A DNA stretch of 35,697 nucleotides from Burkholderiaceae bacterium (lineage in GTDB: Bacteria; Pseudomonadota; Gammaproteobacteria; Burkholderiales; Burkholderiaceae_E). Where the stretch lies: contig JAJTYR010000038.1 in NCBI GenBank assembly GCA_021463505.1, positions 1 to 35,697 of the forward strand. The letters run 5' to 3'. The notes beneath the pieces were generated by a model that saw only the letters and a list, made by a program, of their open reading frames with translations, made no database searches and was not told the origin of the DNA. The position numbers and the translations under genes were made by a program. Shown in pieces: positions 10,478-10,617 of the stretch. Each line of letters begins with the position of its first letter. Positions within the stretch are counted from its first letter, which is position 1.

Positions 10478-10509
10478 AAAAAAAAACCGCCGGACGGGGC
10501 CGGCGGCTT
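10478..10509 (-). terminator. Intrinsic terminator in the aroG leader (attenuator hairpin)
   Basis: Read on the minus strand, CCGCCGG (10506-10500) and CCGGCGG (10493-10487) form a perfect seven-base stem around a six-base loop. Nine T residues follow (10486-10478). Upstream AAG can pair with the first Ts and lengthen the stem to about ten pairs. The T run ends 29 bases before the aroG ATG, and no gene ends just upstream, so this is best read as a regulatory terminator acting on aroG rather than the end of another operon. Confidence 0.85.
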
Positions 10510-10530
10510 CATCGGATTCGGTTCGTGGCT

Positions 10531-10617
10531 TCAGGTCTGCGAACGCGCTCCCGACTCGTCCCGCCGGTGGCAGGAAAAGCCGAAGAAGTAAAAATGGAAC
10601 GCGATGCGCTGCAACAT
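10531..10617 (-). CDS. Putative aroG leader peptide, Phe/Tyr rich (28 aa)
   Basis: This short frame begins at ATG 10617 and stops at TGA 10533-10531. Codons 7 to 14 read FHFYFFGF: five Phe and one Tyr in eight codons, strongly reminiscent of the pheL leader of enterobacterial pheA. It is followed 21 bases later by the attenuator hairpin upstream of aroG. Right after the Phe codons, bases 10567-10561 read CCGGCGG, a perfect complement of the first arm of the terminator stem, so they could form an antiterminator. Expected behaviour: plentiful charged tRNA-Phe lets the ribosome move on and the terminator form; scarcity stalls it and spares aroG. No Shine-Dalgarno precedes the ATG. The peptide itself probably has no other function. 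The remaining doubt is lack of comparative evidence. Confidence 0.8.

Follow-up and report, generated by a model that had tools for sequence, protein, structure and literature searches.

A predicted ribosome-mediated attenuator with phased aromatic codons upstream of aroG in Burkholderiaceae and other Proteobacteria

DAHP synthase is the entry enzyme of the shikimate pathway and a main control point for the aromatic amino acids. An attenuator before the DAHP synthase gene is described for aroR-aroF of Corynebacterium glutamicum in passages of two papers (PMC11802643, PMC4046766), and a 1980 proposal of attenuation or termination at E. coli aroF, concerning Tyr, is mentioned in passages of two others (PMC2659441, PMC8632094). 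Attenuation of DAHP synthase as such is not new. Full-text searches of open-access papers found no report of an aroG attenuator for Burkholderiales, xanthomonads or rhizobia, and an earlier prediction may exist elsewhere. The remark in the original prediction that such control is not described for aroG in this lineage stands uncontradicted there, subscription papers aside.

The window, the whole stretch of 35,697 nucleotides analysed here, is one contig of a 3.58-Mb genome in 120 contigs. A ribosome-mediated transcription attenuator very probably controls its aroG gene. Attenuation sensing Phe had been proposed from the window's letters, and comparison with relatives, conserved parts and competing pairings all support it. 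Sequence comparison and folding show the anatomy of the element and how well it is conserved; they also show which pairings compete, how the aromatic codons are phased and where the promoter is placed.

Anatomy of the leader region

The aroG product scores 574.7 bits against the NCBIfam AroG model NF006723 (cut-off 568) and 535.2 bits against TIGR00034. Upstream of the gene, the stretch 12197-19851 of the minus strand encodes a DUF748/AsmA-type protein, TldD and a carbon-nitrogen hydrolase; between these and aroG is an SDR-type gene on the plus strand, recognised in residues 190-420 of frame 10922-12187. Downstream of aroG is a 920-codon frame (6564-9326, minus strand) whose FAD-linked oxidase domains are confined to the second half; the overlapping frame 8666-9259 has a cyclic-nucleotide-binding domain. 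The leader features are, from 5' to 3' on the minus strand:

10647..10652, minus strand: -35-like hexamer TTGCAG, 17 bases 5' of the -10-like hexamer, read from the sequence
10624..10629, minus strand: -10-like hexamer TACACT, ending 6 bases 5' of the leader ATG
10531..10617, minus strand: leader peptide ORF, 28 codons plus TGA, from the sequence and comparison of orthologues
10576..10599, minus strand: aromatic run FHFYFFGF, codons 7-14 (Tyr10 at 10590-10588, Phe11 at 10587-10585)
10559..10575, minus strand: predicted protector (1:2) hairpin TCCTGCC-ACC-GGCGGGA, overlapping the antiterminator 5' segment
10561..10567, minus strand: antiterminator 5' segment CCGGCGG
10511..10555, minus strand: helices nested in the antiterminator, 10555-10550 with 10516-10511 and 10547-10540 with 10525-10519 (one bulge)
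10500..10506, minus strand: CCGCCGG, the antiterminator 3' segment and part of the terminator 5' arm
10478..10510, minus strand: intrinsic terminator, with its stem at 10510-10483 and a nine-T run at 10486-10478
9384..10448, minus strand: aroG, DAHP synthase, 354 aa, from its NCBIfam match

The anatomy agrees with the original prediction: the 28-codon frame with its run at codons 7-14 is found exactly as claimed, the nine-T run ends 29 bases 5' of the aroG ATG (10448), and the two segments CCGGCGG and CCGCCGG are exact complements. The features by which an attenuator is recognised are present, namely end-product codons clustered in a short ORF, an intrinsic terminator between leader and gene, phased control codons and, in silico, an antiterminator that is freed by a stall and excludes the terminator; a protector hairpin is seen within the window's family. 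Protector, antiterminator and terminator follow the classical layout and are predicted to be mutually exclusive.

No Rfam family matched the window at gathering score, nor the leaders of 16 relatives. Five weak matches were obtained for the leader region at E ≤ 10, none at gathering. Among them, RF02837 (anti-hemB, a Burkholderia small RNA) has the lowest E-value, 0.26, and covers the antiterminator and terminator (10478-10576, minus strand) with 15.8 bits against a gathering score of 49.5; this identity was dropped, as the family has no gathering-score match in the relatives, Burkholderia included.

Conservation upstream of aroG and specificity of the element

The AroG protein found a match in 54 of 61 genomes searched, which gave 49 orthologue upstreams; a further 80 came from a collection of named genomes, being the best 80 of at least 591 matched stretches. 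These 129 upstreams include at least one genome present in both sets (L020 and L071) and a second copy from one genome (L045); the L045 stretch is out of place by a single base, with no effect on the ORF scan. An upstream was scored as positive when it had a terminator and a nearby-ending ORF with at least four aromatic residues in nine. Leader and terminator were found together upstream of 89 of the 129 orthologues (35 of 49 and 54 of 80), and upstream of none of 26 paralogous DAHP synthase copies put through the same scan. In the window's family, 28 of 32 upstreams score. Three of the other four (L007, L013 and L028) have the leader cut by a contig end, with leader tail and terminator present, and the fourth, L025, has no leader seen upstream of aroG. 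Elsewhere in the order, 7 of the 17 orthologues from the 61 genomes score. Once the three cut family loci and L116 are set aside, 36 of the 40 misses neither score nor are cut so as to hide a leader.

According to record titles, the named positives include Burkholderia, Paraburkholderia, Caballeronia, Trinickia and Cupriavidus; Janthinobacterium, Massilia, Rugamonas, Noviherbaspirillum, Oxalobacter and Bordetella; and Xanthomonas, Stenotrophomonas, Dyella, Rhodanobacter, Bradyrhizobium, Mesorhizobium and Devosia. Among the named misses are Thauera, Azoarcus, Rhodocyclus, Dechloromonas, Methylotenera, Chitinimonas, Thiohalobacter and Pantoea, as well as Ferrovum, one of two with only 61 bases upstream. 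Conservation in close relatives had been set beforehand as a test of the proposal; aromatic codons, hairpin and antiterminator are all kept, and the pairing holds across families.

Two loci stand apart. In Candidatus Burkholderia humilis (L084), the leader, about 184-37 bases 5' of the aroG match, is frame-shifted relative to its relatives while the antiterminator and terminator words remain; the switch of this symbiont may be decaying. A metagenome-assembled genome labelled Anaerolineae (L138) has an aroG 67% identical to that of the window and an aromatic leader ORF (MSRYFSFFSWYGYF) 197-107 bases 5' of the match, with no terminator in the scan, which is either a binning error or an independent leader.

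A covariance model built from 24 leaders gave one match in the source genome and a match in 42 of the 61 relatives. Across 300 genomes of the order, 118 had a match, many of them bare terminators, and at least 71 had a full-length match at E ≤ 1e-6, a lower bound set by strict filters. We inspected 84 full-length matches, made up of 37 loci (model members included) and 47 others. In 80 of them aroG lies directly 3' on the same strand. Of the remaining four, one runs out at the end of its contig; the other three, with E between 1e-5 and 2e-4, are weak and have neither aroG nor a convincing leader. Hence, the element appears to belong to aroG alone. Among the 47 others, 43 loci are aroG-linked, and in five of these a simple ORF reader found no leader with four aromatic residues in nine. 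In one relative, a short contig bears another aroG-like gene (70% identical) preceded by a different aromatic leader, LFFAYFWF (L233, G009:C7:683-826); this copy could be contamination, and it is an exception outside the control of 26 paralogues.

On a quick tree of 110 AroG proteins, with an arbitrary root, several inner supports that are moderate, and the cut loci L007, L013 and L028 labelled as lacking, the attenuator label needs 11 changes against a shuffled mean of 26.5. The xanthomonad and alphaproteobacterial AroG proteins group with Bordetella and two rows from metagenome-assembled genomes (support 97), inside a mostly attenuated branch. The tree suggests that gene and leader travelled together.

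Competing pairings, phased codons and the transcript start

The loci compared here lack phylogenetic independence. We aligned 24 leaders: five of the 28 scoring family leaders (L017, L019, L026, L036 and L038; longer, with a GTG start, or more divergent) were left out, and L079 was added. In this alignment, pairing reaches 95.2% in the antiterminator core and 85.1% over the antiterminator as a whole, where slid controls give 19-41%. For the terminator it is 96.5% (slid controls 32-68%), and for the protector hairpin of the window's family 89.9% (slid controls 42-64%), with three pairs showing double changes. The helices nested in the antiterminator have 79.5% of cells paired. Shuffled alignments reached the observed number of double-change pairs in 85 of 500 cases for the antiterminator, 142 of 500 for the terminator and 17 of 500 for the protector; the compensatory evidence is modest because the stems barely vary. 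RNAalifold, applied to the 24 leaders, returned protector and terminator, and the antiterminator was absent.

The leading edge of the ribosome was set at 13 bases past the start of its A-site codon, a general value, and the RNA left free by a ribosome at an aromatic codon was folded with the last terminator arm not yet made. In these stall folds, the segment after the run formed at least five pairs with the terminator arm in all 83 distinct loci, as against 36% of shuffles, and at least seven pairs in 62 of the 83, as against 6.4% of 830 dinucleotide-shuffled controls. Taken singly, the pairing score had P < 0.05 in only 55 of the 83 loci. Leader and terminator arms tend to change together: where the terminator word is CCGCCGG (26 loci), 14 loci have CC at the matching leader bases and 4 have CT, which gives a G-U pair; where it is CCGCCAG (45 loci), 30 have CT and none has CC. 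Other leader bases occur in 23 of these 71 loci and in most of the remaining 12 of the 83. With the ribosome at the stop codon, which is at least 14 bases from the terminator arm in every locus, the terminator forms in 83 of 83, largely by construction.

When the window's RNA is folded only as far as the antiterminator 3' segment, stalls at codons 7-14 favour the antiterminator. In the complete RNA, the minimum-energy fold keeps the terminator for all stall positions tried in codons 7-14 except codon 13 (Gly). As the terminator is the stabler fold at full length, the switch must act kinetically. Kinetic action is usually assumed for leader-peptide attenuators.

The peptide tail of the leader is not conserved as a peptide. 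Within 10511..10555, the block GAGTCGGGAGCGCG is kept among relatives and read in two frames, as DESGAR in L001-L006 and others and as GLSRER in L016 and L027. Since it is read in two frames, the block seems to be kept for pairing inside the antiterminator and not as peptide.

The aromatic codons are phased to the antiterminator. Across the 83 loci, the positions 6 and 7 codons 5' of the antiterminator are 95% aromatic, mostly Phe or Tyr, with Phe at 80% in position 6 and Tyr at 57% in position 7. The counterparts in the window are Phe11 and Tyr10, respectively, and these are the two most conserved aromatic positions. In our model of the ribosome's reach, stalling at either position would just uncover the antiterminator segment.

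The leader of the window is probably translated from an mRNA that starts at its own ATG, as indicated by a -10-like hexamer 6-9 bases before the ATG and the near absence of Shine-Dalgarno words. Such a hexamer is found in 23 of 28 family leaders, where 0.09 would be expected per position; it ends 6, 7 or 9 bases 5' of the ATG in 13, 3 and 7 of them, respectively. Shine-Dalgarno 4-mers precede 2 of 89 leader starts as against 54 of 72 aroG starts, the latter count dropping 17 loci without a nearby ATG. A generic sigma-70 scan of the window returned no promoter, the -35-like TTGCAG being under threshold; CTTGC stands at about the -35 place in many family leaders, as read by eye and uncounted. 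Beyond the family, the same hexamer test gave one hit in 14 alphaproteobacterial loci and one in 6 xanthomonad loci. With a looser pattern chosen post hoc, leaders of both these groups have TGACA- or TTGCA-like boxes together with TATA-, TATC- or TACA-like boxes that end mostly 5-7 bases 5' of the ATG. Many leaders of the Burkholderia group and Oxalobacteraceae have TATA-like boxes further upstream.

We infer ribosome stalling, the transcription start, termination in vivo and the acting amino acids, and propose the following course. RNA polymerase would initiate at the A of the leader ATG or close to it, and a ribosome would load on the leaderless 5' end. When charged tRNA-Phe or tRNA-Tyr is short, the ribosome would stall within codons 9-14, chiefly at Tyr10, Phe11 and Phe12, and keep the protector hairpin open. 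CCGGCGG (10567-10561) could then pair with CCGCCGG (10506-10500) while the second terminator arm is still to be made, and the polymerase would read into aroG. When charged tRNA is plentiful, the ribosome would run to the stop codon and disrupt the nested helices; the protector would re-form behind it, the terminator (10510-10478) would form, and an RNA of about 140 bases would be released.

Alternative readings and comparison with known systems

The aromatic codons phased to the antiterminator are mostly Phe and Tyr, and Tyr is thus probably sensed as well as Phe. Among 71 distinct nine-residue runs, all contain Phe, 67 contain Tyr and 36 contain Trp; Phe makes up 42% of the residues, Tyr 21% and Trp 6%. 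The choice of loci for aromatic-rich leaders inflates residue conservation, including the percentages at positions 6 and 7; the phasing should not depend on it. By lineage, Trp is present in 9 of 10 runs from alphaproteobacteria, 5 of 5 from xanthomonads, 4 of 6 from the Burkholderia group, 9 of 24 from the window's family and 9 of 13 from other sources, and in none of 13 oxalobacterial runs. We infer from these runs general sensing of Phe and Tyr, with Trp sensed as well in some lineages. It is rather unlikely, though the most credible of the alternatives, that the same attenuator senses Phe only, the codons for Tyr and Trp being carried along in a hydrophobic run. The presence of Phe in every run, as its commonest residue, fits that account; the occurrence of Tyr in nearly all runs and as the commonest residue at one of the two most conserved positions, the second control position, speaks against it, as does Trp in about half. 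The same figures strengthen what the original prediction had put as "perhaps Tyr".

An improbable account gives the RNA of about 140 bases, once released, or else the peptide, a function in trans like that of Sinorhizobium rnTrpL and peTrpL, with attenuation incidental or additional. The predicted leaderless geometry resembles that of trpL, the RNA is a discrete one with a terminator, and a block of it is conserved across two reading frames. Against this, the element is tied to aroG (80 of the 84 matches inspected), the peptide tail is not conserved as peptide, and the nested helices account for the block. Still less probable is that aroG is mainly under a protein repressor of the TyrR kind and that the leader is vestigial. 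E. coli aroG is repressed by TyrR and the GcvB RNA, according to a passage of PMC11878033, but the leader parts here are kept over deep divergences. An aromatic run is by itself not decisive: six or more aromatic residues in nine occur twice in the six frames of the window. The window also has 70% G+C, and GC-rich hairpins are common. On a further account, the Phe run is due to chance, and the hairpin either ends the transcript of a gene lying upstream or acts on the translation of aroG. This account is largely refuted by conservation across families and is the least credible of all; moreover, the next recognisable upstream gene, of the SDR type, is on the opposite strand, and the aroG start lies 29 bases past the nine-T run.

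The preferred reading remains a ribosome-mediated attenuator. A wider statement, that an attenuator specific to aroG and without an untranslated leader integrates the charging of two or three aromatic tRNAs and has moved with its gene among beta-, gamma- and alphaproteobacteria, is put forward tentatively, as a real possibility short of a probable one. If true, one leader would report the end products of a branched pathway to a single DAHP synthase gene. An RNA switch at aroG appears to be present in a wide range of Proteobacteria, among them soil, plant-associated and environmental ones, and Cupriavidus, Janthinobacterium and Bradyrhizobium offer tractable models for asking how Phe, Tyr and Trp are weighed within one leader and how a leaderless attenuator acquires its ribosome in time. 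Knowledge of the leader would be useful for engineering aromatic production in such hosts. We regard the element as of moderate interest, since it is broadly distributed, stands at the entry to the pathway, would sense a mixture of aromatic amino acids and probably has a leaderless start.

The pheL peptide of E. coli is not known to contain Tyr or Trp. The E. coli pheL-pheA and pheST attenuators resemble the present element in using leader-peptide attenuation with Phe codons; they control the Phe branch or a tRNA synthetase and not the pathway-entry enzyme. Both are named in passages of PMC11802643. For the 5' regions of aroF and aroH in Shewanella and E. coli, also DAHP synthase genes, attenuation or termination is proposed (PMC2659441, PMC8632094); these proposals are machine predictions or hypotheses for other isozymes, and the passages describing them mention no leader peptide. 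For uORFC-13-1 upstream of Acholeplasma aroF, passages of PMC8632094 give a predicted uORF with one or more Phe codons adjoining a terminator before a DAHP synthase gene. Its 24 examples are confined to Acholeplasma and environmental sequences; they have a minimum of one Phe codon and differ in structure. With trpL/rnTrpL of Sinorhizobium meliloti, whose attenuator transcript begins at the leader ATG according to passages of PMC7298713 and PMC10117765, the window's leader would share this leaderless start; there the codons are for Trp, the gene is trpE(G) and the 5' end is reported, whereas the 5' end of the window's leader is a predicted one. The aroR-aroF system of C. glutamicum likewise has a leader peptide with Phe-Tyr-Phe before a DAHP synthase gene and, in the passages on it, is said to answer Phe limitation. 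It is described, in an actinobacterium, with a run of three aromatic residues, while the leaders reported here have four to eight in nine.
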